From: Pelecanus crispus
Taxonomy: Eukaryota; Chordata; Aves; Pelecaniformes; Pelecanidae
Assembly: GCF_030463565.1 (NCBI RefSeq)
Contig: NC_134675.1
Span: 16,637,862-16,701,861 of the forward strand
Length of the DNA stretch: 64,000 bases
Direction of reading: 5' to 3'
Positions 6,928 through 64,000 of the stretch are shown piece by piece. The notes under the pieces were generated by a model. The model was given only the letters and a program-made list of their open reading frames with translations, made no database searches and was not told where the DNA came from. The stretch's first letter is position 1. Each line of letters starts with the position of its first letter. A program made the translations under genes and the position numbers.

Positions 6928-7528
6928 GCAGGACCTGTGGACCCGTGGAGAGAGGAGCCCACGCTGGAGCAGGTTTCCTGGCAGGACTTGTGACCCCGTG
7001 GGGGACCCACACTGGAGCAGTTCGTGAAGAACTGCAGCCCATGGGAAGGGCCCACATTGGAGAAGTCCGTGGAGGACTGCCTCCCGTGGGAAGGGACCCC
7101 ATGCTGGAGCAGGGGAAGAGTGTGAGGAGTCCTGTCCCTAAGGAGGAAGGAGTGGCAGAGACGACACGTGATGAACTTGACCGCAACCCCCATTCCCCAT
7201 CCCCCTGCGCCACTCGGGGGGAGGAGGGAGAGAAAAATGGGAGTAAAGTTAAGCCCGGGAAGAAGGGAGGGGTAGGGGGAAGGTGTTTTTTTAAGATTTG
7301 GTTTTATTTCTCATTATCCTTTTCTGATTTCATTGGTAATAAATTAAACTAATTTCCCCAAGTCGAGTCTGTTTTGCCTGTGACAGTAATTGGTGAGTGA
7401 TCTCTCCCTGCCCTTATCTTGACCTACAAGCTTTTCATGATATTTTCTCTCCCCTGTCCATTTGAGGAGGGGATTGATAGAGTGGCTTTGGTGGGTACCT
7501 GGCATCCCGCCAGGGTCAACCCACCACA
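6928..7528 (+). mobile_element. LTR-B, 5'-truncated
   Basis: It starts inside the 45-bp repeat block of LTR-B ('ccacgctggagcagg' phrases). It then runs through the purine-rich section, the 'aataaattaaactaatttcc' polyadenylation region and the terminal 'ggcatcc..ccagggtcaacccaccaca'. The first half of the LTR is missing and the break coincides with the end of the LTR-C copy, so the two are fused rather than simply adjacent. Confidence 0.8.
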
Positions 7529-17951: not shown

Positions 17952-17959
17952 GTCCTTTC

Positions 17960-20034: not shown

Positions 20035-23000
20035 AGGGGCCCTGCCTCCAGCCAGGTGGAGGAAAGGGACAACCGGGTTTACTGGACTGTGTGGATTCGA
20101 TGGCCTGGAACGTCAGACCCACAGGAGTATAAGGCTCTGGGGGACACTGGTGCACAGTGTACTCTAATGCCATCAAACTATAGAGGGGCAGAACCCATTT
20201 GTATTTCTGGAGTGACAGGGGGATCCCAACAGCTCACTGTACTGGAAGCTGAAGTGAGCCTAACCAGGAATGAGTGGCAAAAACACCCCATTGTGACTGG
20301 CCCAGAGGCTCCGTGCATTCTTGGCATAGACTACCTCAGGAGAGGGTATTTCAAGGACCCAAAAGGGTACCGGTGGGCTTTTGGTATAGCTGCTTTGGAG
20401 ACAGAGGAAATTAAACAGCTGTCCACCTTGCCCGGTCTCTCAGAGGACCCTTCGATTGTAGGGTTGCTGAAGGTTGAGGAACAACAGGTGCCGATCGCTA
20501 CCACAACTGTGCACAGGCGGCAATATCGCACCAACCGAGACTCCCTGATTCCCATCCATAACCTGATTGGTCGACTGGAGAGCCAGGGAGTGATCAGCAA
20601 GACTCGCTCACCCTTTAACAGTCCCATATGGCCAGTGCGAAAGTCTAATGGGGAGTGGAGACTAACAGTGGACTATCGTGGCCTAAACGAAGTTACACCG
20701 CCGCTGAGTGCTGCCGTGCCAGACATGCTAGAACTTCAATATGAACTGGAGTCAAAGGCAGCCAAGTGGTATGCCACAACTGACATCGCTAATGCATTTT
20801 TCTCCATCCCTTTGGCAGCAGAGTGCAGACCCCAGTTTGCTTTTACCTGGAGGGGTGTTCAGTACACCTGGAACCGACTGCCCCAGGGGTGGAAGCACAG
20901 CCCCACCATTTGCCATGGACTGATCCAGACAGCACTGGAACAGGGTGAAGCTCCAGAACATCTGCAGTACATTGATGACATCCTCGTATGGGGCAACACG
21001 GCAGAAGAAGTTTTTGAGAAGGGAAAGAAAATAGTCCAAATCCTTCTGAAGGCTGGTTTTGCCATAAAACAAAGTAAGGTCAAGGGACCTGCACAGGAGA
21101 TCCAGTTTTTAGGAATAAAATGGCAAGATGGACATCGTCAGATCCCAATGGATGTGATCCACAAAATAACAGCTATGTCCCCACCAACTAGCAAAAAGGA
21201 AACACAAGCTTTCTTAGGCGTTGTGGGTTTTTGGAGAATGCATATTCCAAATTACAGCCAGATCGTAAGCCCTCTCTGTCAAGTGACCCGGAAGAAGAAC
21301 GATTTCAAATGGGGCCCTGAGCAGCAACAAGCCTTTGAACAAATTAAACGGGAGATAGTTCATGCAGTAGCCCTTGGGCCAGTCCGGGCAGGGCAGGATA
21401 TTAAAAATGTGCTCTACACCGCAGCCGGGGAGAATGGCCCTACCTGGAGCCTCTGGCAGAAAGCACCAGGGGAGACTCGAGGTCGACCCCTAGGGTTTTG
21501 GAGTCGGGGATACAGAGGATCCGAAGCCCGCTATACTCCAACTGAGAAAGAGATATTGGCAGCATATGAAGGGCTTTGATCTGCTTCGGAAGTGGTTGGT
21601 ACTGAAGCACAGCTCCTGCTGGCACCCCGACTGCCGGTGTTGGGCTGGATGTTCAAAGGGAGGGTCCCCTCTACACATCATGCAACTGATGCTACATGGA
21701 GTAAGTGGGTTGCATTGATCACACAACGGGCTCAAATAGGAAATCCCAGTCGCCCAGGAATCTTGGAAGTGATCATGGACTGGCCAGAAGGCAAAAACAT
21801 CAGAATATCACCAGAAGAGGAGGTGACACATGCTGAAGAGGCCCCACTGTATAATAAATTGCCAGAAAATGAGAAGCAATATGCCCTGTTCACTGATGGG
21901 TCCTGTCGTCTTGTGGGAAAGCATCGGAGGTAGAAAGCTGCTGTATGGAGTCCTATACGACAAGTCGCAGAAACTGCTGAAGGAGAAGGGGAGTCGAGTC
22001 AGTTTGCAGAGGTGAAAGCCATCCAGCTGGCTTTAGATATTGCTGAACGAGGAAAGTGGCCAGTCCTTTATCTCTATACTGACTCATGGATGGTGGCAAA
22101 TGCCCTGTGGGGGTGGCTGCAGCAATGGAAGCAGAGCAACTGGCAGCGCAGAGGCAAACCCATCTGGGCTGCCGCATTGTGGCAAGATATTGCTGCCCAG
22201 GTAGAGAACCTGGTTGTAAAAGTTCGTCATGTAGATGCTCATGTACCTAAGAGTCGGGCCCCTGAAGAACATCAAAACAACCAGCAAGTAGATCAGGCTG
22301 CTAAGATTGAAGTGGCTCAGGTGGATCTGGACTGGCAGCATAAGGGTGAATTATTTATATCTCGGTGGGCCCGTGACGCCTCAGGCCATCAAGGAAGGGA
22401 TGCAACATATAAATGGGCTCGTGATCGAGGGGTGGACTTAACTATGGACAGTATTGCACAGGTTATTCCTTAGTGTGAAACATGCGCTGCAATCAAGCAA
22501 GCCAAGAGGTTCAAGCCCCTCTGGTATAGTGAACGATGGCTGAAATATAAATATGGGGAGGCCTGGCAGATTGATTATATCACACACCCACAAACCCGCC
22601 AAGGCAAGCGCTATGTGCTCACCATGGTGGAAGCAACCACCGGCTGACTGGAAACATATCCCGTGCCCCATGCCACCACCCGGAACACCATCCTGGGCCT
22701 TGAAAAGCAAGTCCTGTGGCGACATGGCACCCCAGAAAGAATCGAGTCAGACAACGGGACTCATTTCCGAAACAACCTCATAGACACCTGGGCCAAAGAG
22801 CACGGCACTGAGTGGGTATATCACATCCCTTACCATGCACCAGCCTCCGGGAAAATTGAGCGATACAATGGACTGTTAAAGACTACCCTGAGAGCAATGG
22901 GTGGTGGGACATTTAAACATTGGGATACGCATTTAGCAAAAGCCACCTGGTTAGTCAACACCAGGGGATCTGCCAATCGAGCTGGCCCTGCCCAATCAAA

Positions 23001-23220
23001 ACTTGAACGTACTGTAGAAGGAGATAAAGTCCCTGTAGTGCACATAAAAAATATGATGGGGAAGACAGTCTGGGTTACTTCCCCCTCTGGCAAAGGCAGG
23101 CCCATTCGTGGGATTGCTTTTGCTCAAGGACCTGGGTGCCCTTGGTGGGTGATGCGAAAGGATGGGGAAGCCCAATGTGTACCTCAAGGGAATTTGATTT
23201 TGGGTGAAAATAGCCAATGA
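20035..23220 (+). pseudogene. pol: ERVL-like pro-pol (PR-RT-RH-IN), one frame with four stops
   Basis: A single frame from just after the gag TAG (20032-20034) to TGA at 23218. Order: protease with LGDTGAQ (about 20142); reverse transcriptase with LPQGW and the YIDD loop (20968-20979); RNase H with LFTDGSC (about 21886); integrase with all three catalytic acids visible (WQIDY about 22572, ESDNGTHF about 22749, KIERYNG about 22857). Four nonsense codons close it: TGA 21577, TAG 21931, TAG 22471, TGA 22645. The long ORF upstream of the first stop covers protease plus RT. The RT signature and lack of env point to the class III/ERVL side; the Lys primer site is unusual for that class, so the class call is tentative. 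Confidence 0.88.
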
Positions 23221-30005: not shown

Positions 30006-31764
30006 TGTGGTGGGTTGACCCTGGCTGCATGCCAAGTGCCCACCAAAGCTGCTGTATCACTCCCCTTCTCAGCTGGATAGGGGAGAGAAAATATAATGAA
30101 AAGCTCATGGGTCGAGATAAGGATGGGGAGAGATCACTCACCAATTACCATCATGGGCAAAACAGACTCGACTTGGGGAAAATCAGTGTAATTTATTACC
30201 AGTCAAAGCAGAGTAAGGTAATGAGAAATAAAACCAAATCTTAAAACACCTTCCCCCCACTGTTGAAGGCTAACTCTGAAACTTAGCTAACATGGTATCA
30301 GGCCAAGATGTTTTTGTAAGCTGGCAAGTAAAGGACACTTAATCATCCCTAATCAGAAGAACAAACATTCAGTATCCCATAACCAAAGACATCCCGGAGC
30401 AACTAGACCTTGAAGAAGTACTGAGAAACTGATAAAAGGGAACATTTTACCCCAGAAGGTGCCAGAAAAACTGGATGATTGCCAAAAAACAATAACTGGG
30501 GGAAAGGTAATTCTGGCGGGGGGAGATCGCAACCACCGACTCAATTTAGGACCAAAAAGATTTGCCCCCCCCCCCCCCCCCCCAAGGAGCATGCATGCTA
30601 ATTTACATAACAAGTGAGGCTCATTACAATATAGTTGACCAATAGCAGATAGGATGGTAATTACTAACCAATCATCGTAAAAAGAATGATTGCTAACTCT
30701 GTAAGTTTTGTGTATAAATAAGGTGCAGAAAGTCTCATTCAGTGTTCTAGCTTGGTGGAATTACCACCTAGCACCCATCTCTGCGCAGAAATGAAATAAA
30801 ATCGATATCTCGACTCATTGTGTCGATTGGATTGTTGCACACCGGGTAACAAACTCCCTTTGTGAGACAACACCACCCCTCCCTTCTTCCCAGGCTCAAC
30901 TTCACTCCAAATGTTCTCTACTTCCTCCCCCAAGCAGTGCAGGGGGAAGGGGAATGGGGGTTGTGGTCAGTTCATCACATGTTGTCTCTGCCGCTCCTTC
31001 CTCCTCAGGGGGAGGAGTCCTCACATTCTTCTCCTGCTCCAGCGTGGGGTCCCTCCCACGGGAGACAGTCCTCCACGAATTTCTCCTATGTGAGTCCTTC
31101 CCACGGACTGCATTTCTTCACAAACTGTTCCAGCGTGGGTCCCTGCCATGGGGTGCAGTCCTTCAGGAGCAGACTGCTCCAGCGTGGGTCCCCCACAGGG
31201 TCACAAGTCTTGCCAGCAAACCTGCTCCAGCGTGGGCTCCTCTCTCTCCACAGGTCCTGCCAGGAGCGTGCTCCAGCATGGGCTTCCCACAGGGTCACAG
31301 CCTCCTTTGGGCACATCCACCTGCTCTTGTATGGGGTCCTCCACGGGCTGCAGGTGGATATCTGCTCCGCTGTTAACCTCCATGGGCTACAGGGGGACAG
31401 CCTGCCTCACCATGGTCTTCACCATGGGCTGCAGGGGAATCTCTGCTCTGGCACCTGGAGCACCTCCTCCCCCTCCTTCTTCAGTGACCTTGGTGTCTGC
31501 AGAATTGTTCCTCTCACATATTCTCATTCCTCACTCCAGCTGCAGTTTGAGTCCTGGTTTTTTTTTTTCTTCCCTTCTTAAATATGTTATCACAGAGGTG
31601 CTACCACTGTCACTGATTGGCTCAGCTTTGGCCAGTGGTGGGTCTGTCTTGGAGCTGGCTGGCATTGGCTCTATCAGACATAGGGGAAGCTTCTAGCAGC
31701 TTCTCACAGAAGCCACCCTTGTAGCCCCCCCACTCCCAAAACCTTGCCACACAAGCCCAATATA
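30006..31764 (-). mobile_element. solo LTR-B with a nested LTR-C, in the Polinton
   Basis: Plus-strand limits are TGTGGTGGGTTGACC (30006) and CCCAATATA (31764). Perfect 5-bp target duplications GGAGG flank it (30001-30005 and 31765-31769). Without the nested element the LTR is about 1.14 kb. It holds the 45-bp repeat block (30.98-31.2 kb) and a long antisense open frame caused by it. It separates the ATPase and polymerase remnants of the Polinton. Confidence 0.88.
30261..30872 (+). mobile_element. solo LTR-C nested in LTR-B
   Basis: 612 bp, TGTTGAAGG to GAGACAACA, flanked by perfect 4-bp duplications CCAC (30257-30260 and 30873-30876), as expected for class I integrases. It carries 'gtgtataaataagg' (TATA) near 30710, 'ttaccacctagcacccatct' and AATAAA near 30795, and a poly-C tract at 30567-30583. 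The interrupted LTR-B sequence continues exactly on the other side. Confidence 0.92.
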
Positions 31765-31769
31765 GGAGG

Positions 31770-47578: not shown

Positions 47579-48412
47579 TGTATTGGGTGTAAGGCAAGGT
47601 TTTGGTAGGGGGGGGGGCTGCAGGGGTGGTCTCTTGTGAGACGAGACCAAGGGTTGCCCTGTGCTGAACACAGCCAGTTCCACCTGGCTTGGCAATGGAC
47701 CCACCGCTGGCCAAAGATGAGCCAATCAGTGTAGTTGGTGATGCCCCTGTGAAAACATATTTAAGAAAGGGCAAAATGCTGCACAGGCAGTGATTAGTGA
47801 GGAAAAAAAGTGTGAGAAACAACCCTGTGAACACCAAAGTCGAAGGAGGAGGAGGGGGAGGGGGAGGGGGAGGAGGTGCTCCAGGCACTGGAGCAGATAT
47901 TCCCCTGCAGCCCATGGAGGACCCTACACCGTAGCAGTTGGATATTTTCTGAAAGAACTGCAGCCTGCAGAGACCCCACGCTGGATCAGATTTTTTTTCC
48001 TTAAGGACTGCAGCCCATGAAGAGGACCCACGCTGGAGCAGGGGAAAAGTGTGAGGAGGAAGGAGCAGCAGAGAGGAACTGTTATGGACTAAACACAACA
48101 CCCCATTCCCCCTGCACCACTGAGGGGGGGAGGTAGAAGAGTCAGGAATGAAGGAGTAAAGTTGAACCTGAGAAAAAGGGGGAGGGGGCAGGAAGGTGTT
48201 TTTCACCATCGTACTCCTTTTTTAATTGGCAATAAATTAAATTAATTTTCCCCAACTCGAGTCTGTTTTGCCTGTGATGGTAATTGGAAAGTGATCTCCC
48301 TGTCTTTATCTTGACCCACAAGCTTCTCCATCTTATTTTCTCCTGCTGAGGAGGGGGAGTGAGAGAGTGGCTGAGTGGGTGTCTGGCAGCCAGCCAAGGT
48401 CAACCCACTACA
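47579..48412 (+). mobile_element. solo LTR-B
   Basis: 834 bp, TGTATTGGGTGTAAGGC to CAACCCACTACA. It is shorter than the copies at 30.0 and 60.6 kb because it holds only one or two of the 45-bp repeats. It keeps a (GGGGGA)n-like tract (47.84-47.88 kb) and the polyadenylation region 'aataaattaaattaa'. No target duplication seen. Confidence 0.83.
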
Positions 48413-49869: not shown

Positions 49870-50456
49870 ACAAACAGGAAACATAAACACCTATATGTTC
49901 TGTGATATGTCAGAATGATAGGATTATAGCAATGAGGAAGAGAAGGATTAAGAATTGCCAAACACCACTGAAGGGGAAACTCAAATTGTAACTGCTCAGC
50001 AGTGGTAATTTGTGACCAAGGAATGATCTGGCATGGAAGGCAAGAAGGCCTAACAGCAGAAGGGGTTAAACTGGCTGGAAGCAGGAATGCCAGAGACAGA
50101 AGGACTCCCAGTAAGGGAGTGAAGTTTCCCTCAGTCCTGAGATAAGAAATGCTGCAGTATTGTTTTGTAAAGATCCTGGAATGCAAGTGCTCAGGAGCCA
50201 CCTGTGGGCAGCAGAACTGGCTCTGGGGGATTGACCCAGTGCTGGGCCAAGGCACCCCATGCCTACACTCACGGGACTGGTACTGGTACAAGTGTATATA
50301 AGGAATGGGCTCGTGACGTGACGCATGTTTGCAGACTCCTTGTAGAACCACTTATGGCGGTAGGACTGTCCAATGCACTGATCATTTTTTTTTTTTAATT
50401 TAAGCACAAACATGTGTTTAATTCGCCTCAAGGGGTACAATAAAAATTCCCCAACA
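49870..50456 (+). mobile_element. solo LTR-G
   Basis: Plus-strand copy of the LTR at 25.6-26.1 kb. It contains 'aaactggctggaagcagga', 'gtgtatataagg' (TATA) near 50293, 'gcagactccttgtagaacc' and the terminus 'aaaaattccccaaca' at 50456. The left limit is approximate because the first bases have diverged between copies. It lies about 40 bp beyond the proposed ZNF367 polyadenylation signal. Confidence 0.7.
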
Positions 50457-58839: not shown

Positions 58840-60640
58840 TCCTGTCAGCAGCTGTCCCCACAGCCAGTTCAAAACACGGGAAGCCGATACTAGCAGCAGC
58901 AGCAGCAGCAGTTGCCGCGTGCTGATAGGAATGCGAGACTTCTGAGGTCCCTGGCGGTGTCTGAGGGGGTTTCTGGGCCCCTGACACCCTTGGGCTGTGT
59001 GTGTGAGGGACCGGCCAGCTGGCAGCAAGTCTCACGAGAGGGGCGAGTGAGAGTTGGGCGGTGCTGGCTGTCCCCACGGCCAGTTCAAGCCGCGCGAAGC
59101 TGCATAAAACTGGCCCCTAGGGAGCACCAACGACCAGGGCGTGCAAGCAGGGAGCGGCGTCAGTTGGGAGGTGCGTCGGCAGTTCTCGCGGGAAGGGCTG
59201 CACGCTCTGCCAGTTATCGGGCTGCCACCTGCTCTGCTCACCCGCAGGCTTAGGCCGCAGCCCTGACGGTCACCTCTGCAAGCTGGTGGCTGTGCAAGCC
59301 TACCCAGCAGCTTGAGGTCTCCAGGGAATTAGAAGGGCTTATTAGGCAGTGCTTTGAGGTTGTCGAAAGCATAGTGGTAGAGAACAGGCAAGGGTTGCAC
59401 TCTGCAGCAGACAGGAATCAGCTACCTACTCAGGCTAGCCTGTGACAAGTGGAGGAAGCTGCTGTCTGGGTAGAGAGCTGCAAAGACTGCACCCCCACCT
59501 CCTGGGTGGAGGAGGGTGCAAGCTCTACCTGGGCAAGGTGTGCTCTGGTGGAGTCACTCAGGTAAGAGGTGGAGGAGCTGCAGGAGGAAGTCATCAGGCT
59601 ATGACGTATTAGGGAGGGGGAACAAGAAACAGAGTATATTTGAGACTTTGCAAGAAGAAATACTAGGGCCCCATGGCAATGACCTCCAAGGACCACCAGA
59701 CAAAGAGTGTCAACAGCAAACAAACAGCACCTTGGAGGAGGTGCCATGGTGACTCGTGGCAACAGGCTATCACTCCCCCCCATTTCCTCGTATGTACCAA
59801 CCAACAACAGATATGAAGTCTTGGCAGCAGACAAAACCAATGAGCAAAATTCACAGAGAGAAACTGCACCAGCAGCACATACTAAAAGCTGCAAAAGAAA
59901 GAGGCAAGTGCTAGTAGTGGGTGACTCTCTGCTGAGAGGCACAGAGGCACACCCATCTTCCAGCCTGATATATAGTCAAGGGAAGTTTGCTGCTTGCCAG
60001 GAGCCAAGACCTGGGATGTCACAGAGAGACTGCCACAACTGGTTAAAAGCACAGACTACTATCCCCTACTTTTCCATGTGGGCACCAATGACATGGTAAA
60101 GCATAACCTGAGCAAGATCAAGCAAGACTTCAGAGCCCTGGGAGGGCAAGTGATCTTCTCCTCTGTCTTGCCAGTCAGGGATAGGGGTGCCAGCAGAAGT
60201 TGACACATCATGCAGATCAATACCTGGCTTTGCAGCTGGTGTCGTTGCCCTATGGCTTTGCTTTCTATGATCATGGGACTTTCCTCAACATATACAGCCT
60301 ACTGGGGAGAGATAGGATCCACCTACCTAGAAGAGGCAGGGGAATCTTGGCTAGCAGATTGGCTGACTTAGTGAATTGTGCTTTAAACTAACGAACTTGG
60401 GGGGTGGGGTCCAAAGCTGTGACACTTGTGTACTCACAAGCAACAGGGTAGATGAGCCATTACTACCGGAGTAGTGAGGAATGCCCCCCAACCCTCTCCA
60501 AAGGCAAGAACCCTATGTCCAGCCACCTCAAGTGCACATATACCAATGCAAGTAGTCCGGGCAACAAACAGGAGGAACTGGAGCTCTGTGCCCACTCTGA
60601 GAGTTATGATGTCATAGGAATCACAGAAACTTAGTGGGAA
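58840..60640 (+). repeat. CR1 LINE 5' end: 5' UTR, ORF1 and start of ORF2
   Basis: Most CR1 copies lack this end. 58840-59600 is a GC-rich 5' UTR with a repeated 'ccccac(a/g)gccagttcaa' segment (58857 and 59073). ORF1 follows in broken frames (59516-60391) with the SGNH-hydrolase blocks in order: VVGDSLLRG (about 59915), FHVGTND (about 60073) and LLGRDRIHL (about 60302), which contain the Ser, Asn and Asp/His positions of the esterase. ORF2 begins near 60560 (GNKQEELE..ITET) and stops at a TAG where Trp is usual. The element is cut by LTR-B at 60646. Confidence 0.88.
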
Positions 60641-60645
60641 AACTC

Positions 60646-61826
60646 TATATTGGGTTTGCGTGGCAAGGTTTTCATAGCGGGGGGCCTACAGGGGTGGCTT
60701 CTGTGAGAAGCTGCTAGAAGCTTCCCCTATGTCCGACAGAGCCAATGCCAGCCAGCTCCAAGAGGGACCCACTGCTGGCCAAAGCTGAGCCAATCAGCGA
60801 CGGTGGTAGTGCCTCTATGATAATATATTTAAGAAGGGGGAAAAAAATGATGGGACACAAAACTGCAGCTGGAGTGAGAATATGTGAGAGGAACAACTAT
60901 GCAGACACCAAGGTCACTGAAGAAGGAGGGGGAGGAGGTGCTCCAGGCACCAGAGCAGAGATTCCCCTGCAGCCCATGGTGAAGACCATGGTGAGGCAGG
61001 CTGTCCCCCTGCAGCCCATGGAGGTCCATGGTGCAGCAGATATCCACCTGCAGCCCGCGGAGGACCCCACGCCAGAGCAGGCAGATGGGCCCAAAGGAGG
61101 CTGTGACCCTGTGGAGAGCCTGCGCTGGAGCAGGCTCCTGGCAGGTCCTGTGGACCCGTGGAGACAGAAGCCCACGCTGGAGCAGGTTTCCTGGCAGGAC
61201 TTGTGACCCCGTAGGGGACCCATGCTGGAGCAGTCTGCTCCTGAAGGACTGCACCCCGTGGAAAGGACAAGTGGAAAGGACCCACGCTGGAGCAGTTTGT
61301 GAAGAACTGCAGCCTGTGGGAAGGACCCACACAGGAGCAGTTCATGAAGAACTGCAGCCTGTGGGAAGGACCCACATTGAAGAAGTTCGTGGAGGACTGT
61401 ATCCCGTGGGAGGGACCCCACGCTGGAGTAGGGGAAGAGTGTGAGGAGGAAGGAGCGGCAGAGACAGCATGTGATGAACTCACCACAACCCCCATTCCCT
61501 GTCCCCCTGCACCACTTGGGGGGAGGATGCAGAGAAAATCGGGAGTGAAGCTGAGCCCAGGAAGAAAGGAGGAATGGGGGGAAGGTGTTTTAAGAGTTAG
61601 TTTTATTTCTCATTACCCTACTCAGTTTTGATTGGTAATAAATTAAACTGATTTTCCCCAAGTCAAGTCTGTTTTGCCCGTGACGGTAATTGCTGAGTGA
61701 TTTCCCTGTCCTTATCTCGACCCATGAGCTTTTCGTTATATTTTGTCTCCCCTGTCCAGTTGAGAAGGGGAATGATAGAGCGGCTTTGGTGGGCACTTGG
61801 CATCCAGACAGGGTCAACCCACCACA
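60646..61826 (+). mobile_element. LTR-B, full length
   Basis: About 1.18 kb, TATATTGGGTTTGCG (TG of the family start changed to TA, as in the 31.76-kb copy) to CAACCCACCACA. It carries 'gatgagccaatcag'-type CCAAT box sequence near 60788, 'aatatatttaag' TATA-like near 60822, five to six 45-bp repeats (61.17-61.42 kb) and the polyadenylation region near 61636. Confidence 0.85.
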
Positions 61827-61903
61827 GACCTTGTAGAACCACTTATGGGACTGGTACTGGTGCAAGTGTACATAAGGAATGGGCTCGTGACGCATCTTTT
61901 CTA
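61827..61903 (+). mobile_element. 77-bp rearranged LTR-G fragment
   Basis: Sequence from two places of LTR-G in swapped order: first 'ccttgtagaaccacttatg' (normally downstream of the TATA box), then 'ggactggtactggtgcaagt' to 'gctcgtgacgcat' (normally upstream). It separates the full LTR-B from a second LTR-B end. Confidence 0.7.
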
Positions 61904-62039
61904 ATTGCCGAGTGATCTCCCTGTTCTTATCTTGACCCACGAGCCTTTTGTCGTATTTTTCTCCCTGTCCAGCTGAGGAGAGGGATTGATAGAGTAGCTT
62001 GGTGGGCACCTGGCATCCAGCCAAGGTCAACCCCCCCCA
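61904..62039 (+). mobile_element. second LTR-B end (U5) leading to primer site
   Basis: Repeats the last ~135 bp of LTR-B ('attgccgagtgatctccctg' to 'ccagccaaggtcaacc'). It is followed by 'gtccttttt', the same kind of spacer that precedes the primer site at 17960. Confidence 0.78.
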
Positions 62040-62047
62040 GTCCTTTT

Positions 62048-62123
62048 TGGTGCCCAATGTGGAGTACGAACCCACAACCCTGAGATTAAGAGTCTCATGC
62101 TCTACTGACTGAGCTAGCCGGGC
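62048..62123 (-). tRNA. complete tRNA-Lys(CTT) copy including CCA, fused to a retroviral primer site
   Basis: On the minus strand the 76 bases read as a full tRNA: GCCCGGC acceptor arm, TAGCTCAGTCAGTAGAGC D-arm, anticodon stem TGAGA/TCTCA with loop CTCTTAA (anticodon CTT, Lys), GGGTT variable/T-arm entry, and the 3' end GGGCACCA. The encoded CCA, which genes for vertebrate tRNAs lack, and the position exactly at the retroviral primer site (plus strand TGGTGCCCAATGTGGAGT after the LTR spacer) indicate reverse transcription of the whole primer tRNA rather than a tRNA gene. A few changes in the T-arm (TTCGTACTCC) suggest it is not active. Confidence 0.85.
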
Positions 62124-62137
62124 TAGAGGGAGCTCAT

Positions 62138-64000
62138 AAGCTTTCCTAGGCCTTGTGGGATTCTGGAGAATGCATATTCCAGGTTATAGTCAGCTTGTGA
62201 GCCCTCTCTATTGAGTAACCCAAAAGAACTATTTTGAGTGGGGCCCTGAGCAACAGCAAGCTTTTGAGCAGATCACACAGGAGATAGCTCGTGCGGTACT
62301 CTTGGGCCTGTCCAGACAGGACCAGCTGTGCAAAATGTGCTCTACACTGCAGCTGGGAAGCATGGTCTCACCTGGAGCCTCTGGCAGAAAACATCAGGAG
62401 AAACCCGAGGTCAACCTCTAGGGTTTTGGAGCCAGGGGTATCAAGGATCAGAAGTCCCGACTGAAAAAGAGATACTAGCAGCATATGAGGGGGCTCGAAC
62501 TGCTTCAGAAGTTGTTGGTACAGAAACATATCTCCTCTTGGCACCACGATTGCCCGTGCTACACTGAATGTTCAAAGGAAACGTCCCCTCTACACATCAC
62601 GCAACCAGCGCTACATGGAGTAAGTGGGTAGCGTTGATCACGCAACGAGCTCGACTGGGGAAGCCCAGCTGCCCAGGAATCCTGGAAGAGATCATGGACT
62701 GGCCAGAAGGCAAAGATTTTGGAGCGGTGCCTGAGGAGGCAGCTCGTGCCCAAGAGGCACCACCATATAATGAGTTATCAGAAGATTAAAGGCGTTATGT
62801 TTTGTTTACTGATGGATCCTGTCATGTTGTAGAAACCATCGGAAGTGGAAAGCTGCTGTGTGGAGTCCCACACGACAAAGTGTTGAAGCCACTGAAGGAG
62901 AAGGTGAGTCAAGTCAGTTTGCAGAAGTGAAAGCCATCCAGCTGGCCCTAGAGATTGCTGAATGAGAAAAGTGGCCAGTACTCTATACTGACTCATGGAT
63001 GGTGGTTAATGCCCTATGGGGTTGGCTACAGCAGTGGAAGACAATAACCAATTGGCAGCGCAGGGGTAAACCCATCTGGGCTGCTGCATTGTGGCAGGAC
63101 ATCACTGCCTGGGTAGAAAACATCGCTCTAAAGGTACGCCATGTAGGTACTCACATGCCCAAAAGCTGCCCCACTGAAGAACATCAAAACAATGAACAGG
63201 TAGACAAGGCTGTCAAAATTGAAGTGGCTCAGGTGGACCTGGACTGGGAGCATAAGGGTGAACTACTTGTAGCTCCATGCACCCACAAAACATCAGGACA
63301 TCTAGGGAGATGCAACATACAGAAGGGCTCGTGACTGAGGGGTGGACCTGACCATGGAGGCCATCACACAGGTCACTCATGAATGTGAAACGTGCTGCAA
63401 TCAAACGAGCCACACGAGTGAAGTCTCCCTGAAATAGAGGGAGGTGGCTGGGTTTTCGATATGGTGAGGCCTGGCAAATTCACTATATTGGACCACTGCC
63501 ACGAACATGTCAAGGCAAGCGCTACATACTCACCATGGTGGAAGCAACTACTGGTTGGCTAGAAACATACTGTGTAAACCATGCCACTACCTGAAACACC
63601 ATCTTAGGCCTTGAAAGGCAAATTCTGTGGTGACATGGTACCCCAGAAAGAACTGAATCAGACAATGGGACTCATTTCCGAAATAACCTCATAAACTCCT
63701 GGGACAAGAAACACAGCACTGAGTGAGTGCATCACATCCCCTATCACCCATAAGCCTCTGGAAAGATTGAGAGATATAATGGACTGTTAAAGACTACGTT
63801 GAGAGCGTTGGGCAATGGGTCATGGAAGCACTGGGATATAAATTTAGCAGAAGCCACTTGGCTGGTTAACACCAGAGGATCTGCTAACCCTCCTGGTCCT
63901 GCCCAAACAAAACCCCTACATACTGTGGAAGGAGAGAAAGTCCCCGTAGTGCACATAGGGAAGTGGCTGGGGAAGGCAGTGTGGATTGCTCCTCCCGTGG
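62138..64000 (+). pseudogene. pol: LTR-B-associated ERV pol, RT C-terminus to integrase, heavily decayed
   Basis: Starts abruptly 14 bp after the tRNA copy, inside RT (GFWRMHIPGYSQL), so leader, gag, protease and most of RT are missing. It continues through a connection region (PTEKEILAAYEG), RNase H (LFTDGSC-like near 62805, then YTDSWMVV near 62985) and integrase (SDNGTHF near 63660, GKIERYN near 63765) to the window edge. More than ten stops and frame changes, so much older or less constrained than the 20-23 kb copy. The protein is a divergent relative of that ERVL-like pol. Confidence 0.85.

Follow-up and report, generated by a model that had tools for sequence, protein, structure and literature searches.

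A precise stop at m1A58 of the primer tRNA is required for second strand transfer in retroviruses, as is known mainly from work on HIV-1 in vitro and in cell culture. According to a review of HIV-1, m1A58 stops plus-strand synthesis, a tRNA without this modification is copied through to its 5′ end, synthesis runs on beyond A58 when TRMT6 is lost, and minor stops occur at position 37 (PMC13191261). The production of both arrest and mismatched bases by reverse transcription over m1A is the topic of PMC4787781. Work in laboratory systems has found retrotranscribed tRNAs within retroviral DNA or next to it (PMC12220202, citing Colicelli and Goff as well as the Berkhout laboratory).

The window analysed here, a 64-kb stretch of DNA, carries a complement of an entire tRNA-Lys(CTT) at the primer site of an endogenous retrovirus, and similar copies occur elsewhere in the genome, apparently that of a bird. 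The HIV-1 read-through products covered in PMC13191261 (P1, a full copy; P5, a stop at ms2t6A37) are like these copies in the step, the template and the classes of end-point, namely the whole tRNA or near position 37. Those products were obtained in vitro, in TRMT6-mutant cells or with A58U tRNA, whereas the elements described here are integrated and germline-fixed, involve tRNA-Lys(CTT) and have a recurrent A opposite A58. In an earlier case of primer tRNA copied into retroviral DNA, the primer was reportedly spurious, the DNA an unintegrated circle and four 5′ nt were missing; here the primer is the cognate one, the copies are integrated and the 5′ end is complete in several. HIV-1 variants from the Berkhout laboratory likewise captured tRNA sequence during reverse transcription, 63 nt from tRNA-Asp or 65 nt from tRNA-Glu, but these non-cognate tRNAs reportedly lie in the nef region, replacing a hairpin, and not at the primer site (PMC12220202). 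An earlier report of full primer-tRNA copies in endogenous retroviruses was not among the literature matches listed, which gave titles and the beginnings of abstracts and included few subscription journals. The chemistry of reading past m1A58 is already known from HIV-1; what seems new is that such products form a series in nature, passed on in the germline, whose end points are graded, which bears a mark of misreading and whose fates can still be recognised.

A complete tRNA complement at the primer site

The only tRNA that ARAGORN detected in the window is a minus-strand tRNA-Lys(ctt) at 62048-62123, and the Rfam tRNA model matched the same segment with 49 bits (E 1.8e-7; gathering score 29). 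Read on the plus strand, the segment is the complement of mature tRNA-Lys(CTT) from the CCA to the first base, all 76 nt. Aligned with the cellular tRNA-Lys-CTT gene of this genome, to which one T was appended to complete the CCA end, it was identical at 69 of 76 positions; the same number was obtained with what we take to be the vertebrate tRNA-Lys-CTT sequence. The minus-strand search and the alignment agree with the sequence-only reading, which had claimed a 76-nt complement with CCA at the primer site. By our reading, CpG decay would account for four of the seven differences from the cellular gene, as expected of an old insertion.

The U5 end (..CA) at 62039 is followed on the plus strand by the spacer GTCCTTTT (62040-62047), which leads from the LTR to the primer site and is the same, within two mismatches, in 1661 pattern-selected primer sites. 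The tRNA complement starts directly after this U5 end and spacer, at the position of the primer site, with TGG, the complement of CCA. Its first 18 nt (62048-62065) are a tRNA-Lys primer binding site of the length that is normal in relatives. The other 58 nt (62066-62123) are an over-extension, complementary to tRNA nt 58 to 1, with its 3′ boundary at the first base of the tRNA. One of the seven differences, a T-to-A change at 62066, falls on the very base that faces A58. A cellular tRNA gene has no encoded CCA and no LTR at its 3′ side, and the window copy does not conform to this. The cellular tRNA-Lys-CTT gene (L002) does; it adjoins a tRNA-Val gene, has no LTR and encodes no CCA, its flank happening to provide GG.

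Primer sites of human ERVs are treated as 18 nt in PMC4724089. A pattern of the spacer and 17 nt of the primer site, allowing two mismatches, had 1661 matches in the 1.31-Gb genome, and the reversed control had none. No extension into the tRNA was seen in the 30 leaders listed first among the 1661, mostly LTR-A-type (L040 has an LTR-B-like end), or in 18 LTR-B-type leaders, which represent all places within one mismatch of the LTR-B-type pattern. The leader of the family therefore does not include the 76 nt. The sequence-only reading had stated that it would fall if all LTR-B members carried the 76 nt; none of these 18, and none of the 30, did so. After the 18-nt site, ordinary leaders match the tRNA at no more than 13 of 28 bases, as compared with 25-27 in three long extended copies. 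Sixteen of the 18 LTR-B-type copies enter a leader after the 18-nt site and L091 departs inside the site. In L088 (C20:945840-945978), the LTR end and 18-nt primer site are followed directly by an inverted LTR; this copy has no tRNA read-through, so a junction to an inverted LTR also arises without it. By eye, L034, one of the 30, leaves the primer site for other sequence and soon reaches the integrase region.

In the window's LTR-A provirus, whose leader starts at 17952, the site is 18 nt long and the sequence then departs from the tRNA except for CGAA. Many LTR-A-type leaders continue N-CGAA after the site, matching tRNA nt 57-54, a resemblance to the primer over-extension sequence that PMC13191261 describes in lentiviruses and spumaviruses. 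By this analogy, N-CGAA may serve as an over-extension sequence in LTR-A-type leaders.

Extended copies in the genome

A pattern reaching 31 nt into the tRNA had 17 matches; one was the cellular gene, and each of the other 16 was a copy that carries the spacer and primer site. DNA and pattern queries added L005, L007, L013, L094 and L104, resulting in 21 copies including that of the window. A query with the tRNA of L063 returned nine places, itself and eight already known. The ratio of 16 extended copies to 1661 sites, obtained with two patterns of unlike tolerance, corresponds to roughly 1% of detectable primer sites. The 21 leave out two tRNA fragments that do not start at a primer site. One (L017, the same as L069; C45:2408935-2408980) is a tRNA-Lys fragment inside an LTR-A-like element; the other (L105; C3:86093950-86094400) comprises 54 nt, reaches the 5′ end of the tRNA and adjoins gag-like sequence.

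The extent of the tRNA varied. It was 74-76 nt in 7 of the 21 copies (L005, L007, L013, L053, L059, L063 and the window copy), 68 nt in L094, 59 nt in L060, 56 nt in L056, 55 nt in L104 and 47-48 nt in L051, L055 and L064. In another 6 of the 21 (L052, L054, L057, L058, L062 and L067), the tRNA ended at 36-41 nt, near t6A37. For L066 we used about 30 nt; its automatic end point of 44 nt enters the leader by chance. Many copies thus end either at the 5′ end of the template or near a modified position. Since the longest copies are favoured by some of the searches, we turned to the set from a single pattern, without L066, in which 4 of 15 copies end at 75-76 nt (P = 0.003 if end points were uniform). 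Such a peak at the tRNA 5′ terminus is what run-off would predict. The group near position 37, a zone that we chose after seeing the data, would agree with the minor t6A37 stop of HIV-1. A search for shorter extensions listed 100 of 174 places and left out those ending in GAACA or GAACG, so it may have missed some beyond the 21.

Some copies show further irregularities. The primer site of L051 is preceded by integrase-region sequence instead of an LTR, and the LTR of L058 is truncated. Part of the anticodon loop is missing from L053, and about 6 nt beside A58 from L007; the polymerase may have jumped over regions that were modified or folded.

By eye, the sequence after the tRNA differed in all 21 copies. 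The tail rejoins the normal leader in L064 and L066, and leads to internal regions in L059, L094 and the window copy. It is joined to an LTR in the same direction in L051 and L057, to inverted viral sequence in L052, L058, L060, L062 and L063, and to short viral pieces in L067, where the downstream antisense gag-like match is weak (38 bits). In L005, L007, L013, L053, L054, L055 and L056, it is followed by DNA without a match to our six reference pieces, a comparison that did not include the downstream sequence of L104. Microhomology was present at the junctions of L066 and L057. The copies also fall into two types by the anticodon stem, GAG/CTC and GGG/CCC; both sides of the stem are changed in the GGG/CCC type (L007, L013, L060, L063, L094 and L104). 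A GGG/CCC isodecoder exists in human, and a search of this assembly for its gene found none. As the junctions are all different and two isodecoders are represented, we concluded that the copies are independent.

The base opposite A58 was changed from T to A in 7 of 20 copies (the window copy, L013, L056, L058, L059, L067 and L007, whose alignment at A58 is uncertain), and every change at this position was T to A. L104, which lies outside the 20-copy per-position table, has the same change. No other position had more than 2 transversions, with 21 in the 1066 other cells. The excess at A58 had P = 1e-6 with L007 dropped and 1e-4 after correction for the 76 positions. The other 13 of the 20 copies have a plain T, so misreading is not visible in most.

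The simplest reading of this excess is that the polymerase sometimes bypassed a methylated A58 and placed A opposite it, and that A58 of the copied primer carried its methyl group. In the window copy, too, the A points to a methylated base that was there but was read wrongly, and not to its absence; taken alone, the A at 62066 could be an ordinary mutation. In ordinary leaders, the corresponding base (base 19 from the start of the primer site) was A in 75, T in 16, C in 8 and G in 1 of 100 listed out of 432 exact matches to the LTR-A pattern, uncorrected for relatedness. The next two positions, a CpG, varied in only 4 and 3 of the 100, as against 25 with a base other than A. Inherited subfamilies could explain this variation in ordinary leaders but hardly that in extended copies, because there the bases after that position derive from the tRNA.

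Clear LTR termini at both outer ends were found in five copies. Three of them had perfect 5-bp target duplications (L059, GGCAC; L060, TGTCT; L064, TCCTG), and in the other two (L052 and L062) 4 of 5 bp matched. In the three with perfect duplications the tRNA DNA predates integration, and L052 and L062 come close to showing the same. The tRNA-to-gag junction of L059 probably predates integration too because the 5-bp duplication there is perfect. L060 is the clearest case: after a full LTR, the spacer and 59 nt of tRNA, the 12 nt that open the LTR appear in reverse complement, and the duplication comes next. Plus-sense DNA seems to have been primed by the tail at the beginning of U3, which would have given an element with two U3-type ends. 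No target duplication was found in L067, which ends in a U5-like piece, and no clear one in the seven copies joined to DNA without a reference match.

Structure of the window copy around the tRNA

A full-length LTR-B (60646-61826, plus strand) lies inside a LINE, which we take to be CR1. It matches other LTR-B copies of the window at 30878-31765 and 30006-30259 (both on the minus strand), 6950-7528 and 47905-48412. A paralogue of its left flank (59188-60645) at L050 2459-3491 continues without the LTR. On the right, the LTR is followed by a 75-nt insert (61827-61901, plus strand) in which two segments of a different LTR-like repeat stand in exchanged order; insert nt 3-22 correspond to 50338-50357 (100%) and nt 21-66 to 50273-50318 (96%). 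The insert looks like the product of serial template switching. It has CCTT in common with the spacer.

The insert is followed by a second, tandem copy of the U5 end (61902-62039, plus strand), 83.7% identical to 61687-61832 and 86% in a global comparison. The sequence-only reading had placed an LTR-B end before the primer site. A U5 end and a spacer are indeed there, but the U5 is this tandem copy and not the end of the full LTR-B at 60646-61826. Similarly, an extra segment does stand before pol, where a 14-bp one had been claimed at 62124-62137, but it is only 11 nt long (62124-62134, plus strand), as pol homology starts at 62135.

These 11 nt are neither tRNA nor pol and had no match in L097-L099, in the rest of the window or in the other loci compared. 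None of the 39 other scored pol matches, up to 91% identical, begins before query position 12. With one gap allowed, the 11 nt appear to resemble a diverged part of the pol of relatives. We also considered the 5′ leader of a pre-tRNA as their source; by eye, there was only weak likeness to the flank of L002.

The broken pol, truncated at its 5′ side, occupies 62135-64000 on the plus strand and runs past the window to a truncated 3′ LTR of LTR-D type (L050 969-1295, 85% to LTR-D). It is 77% identical to 21203-23085. Pfam RNase_H was detected at 62966-63331 (E 2.6e-8) and RT_RNaseH_2 on two pieces below the cut-off; the pol piece presumably includes the integrase region. In the two cases measured forward (C45:5503098 to 5506790 and C1:203750587 to 203753576), the related pol lies 3.0-3.7 kb downstream of an ordinary primer site, and therefore roughly that much is missing from the window copy. 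The 5′ LTRs of these two relatives are closest to LTR-D (70-78%). Since LTR-D is also the type of the window copy's 3′ LTR, the 5′ end of the window copy is a chimera. We looked for a target duplication between the CR1-like left flank and the truncated LTR-D-type LTR at the right end and found none.

Origin of the tRNA tails

We consider it highly probable that the 76-nt segment was reverse-transcribed from the primer of the provirus itself, when plus-strand strong-stop synthesis passed m1A58. The support lies in the primer position, the CCA, the run-off at nt 1, the relatives with 18-nt sites, the independent sisters, the excess of transversions at A58 and some target duplications. The polymerase would have read past m1A58, placing an A opposite it in the window copy, and copied the primer to nucleotide 1. 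The tail would then have joined other DNA: the middle of pol in the window copy, and the leader, an LTR in direct or inverted orientation or apparently non-viral DNA in the sisters. Either mispriming or end joining may have made the junction with pol. Around twenty accidents of this kind at other places in the genome suggest that the normal chemical stop signal was leaky and at times misread.

Origins that do not involve read-through fit less well. That the segment still folds as a tRNA could be explained by a cellular tRNA gene, a tRNA pseudogene or a tRNA-derived SINE lying beside the LTR by chance. We rejected such a gene or SINE and give this explanation next to no chance: in almost every copy the CCA complement directly adjoins the spacer where the primer site should be, these copies are of tRNA-Lys-CTT, the primer of the family, and the true gene L002 is free of LTRs. 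Insertion beside the LTR of a free, self-primed tRNA reverse transcript, independent of priming, would follow the model of Gurgo and Franchini for tRNA-Gly beside an HIV-1 provirus (PMC12220202). This is very improbable for a cognate primer that starts at the primer site, is complete to its 5′ end in several copies and belongs to a series with partial extensions. A subfamily might instead have inherited one accidental tRNA capture as its normal leader and spread it, as the spacer and full tRNA common to several copies could suggest. The downstream sequence and the extent of the tRNA differ among the copies, two isodecoders are involved and none of the 48 ordinary leaders carries a tRNA extension. 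A single spreading chimera was thereby rejected, and this origin retains a very slim chance.

The junction with pol is a separate matter. The sequence-only reading had held that the polymerase passed A58, copied the whole primer and then switched template into pol, with loss of the leader, gag, protease and RT. The read-through part stood, in view of the 18-nt relatives and the series with varied end points. That a direct switch caused the loss of the leader, gag, protease and most of RT is less well supported: the junction has 11 orphan nt instead of microhomology, the region of the 5′ LTR is a chimera, the 3′ LTR is cut short and belongs to a different type, and no target duplication was found. 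Read-through could have made the tail, with end joining or a later genomic deletion, and no template switch, making its junction with pol. The orphan stretch, the chimeric 5′ LTR region without a matching 3′ LTR and the seven sisters apparently joined to non-viral DNA argue for this, but the tRNA-to-gag junction of L059, with its perfect 5-bp duplication and probable pre-integration origin, and the microhomology in L066 and L057 argue against it; we give it somewhat less than an even chance. The description of the locus as a physical record of failed plus-strand termination is firmer for the genome-wide series than for the window copy alone.

For the series, we lean slightly towards a broader reading, in which the genome holds a fossil footprint of primer-tRNA modification. 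Graded strong-stop 3′ ends would have leaked past m1A58, with A written opposite it in a third. The same base in ordinary leaders, mostly A and variable, would look as if m1A58 had rewritten it over successive rounds. Tails would have snapped back or jumped to plus-sense viral DNA, and the resulting small elements, with an inverted U3 as the far terminus, would have been accepted by integrase (L060, L064, L052 and L062). If this is true, such archives would make it possible to read how tRNA was modified and how reverse transcriptase behaved in the germline of past hosts. Some twenty heritable failures of the m1A58 stop are preserved in this genome. They record how far the enzyme read, which isodecoder it used, which base it placed opposite A58 and what became of the misfit tail, in some cases integration of a form with two U3-type ends. 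Any genome with many recent ERVs could be searched in this way.

We take the element to be an avian, ERVL-like (class III) endogenous retrovirus; in the pol of the window copy, the Pfam match bearing on this is RNase_H, and the 5-bp target duplication, an ERVL-like trait, was seen in sister copies only. Twenty-four of the 40 scored pol matches, the window's own included, were on contig C45, which contains the window and makes up 22 Mb of the 1.31-Gb genome. C45 may be a W-chromosome-like refuge for ERVs.
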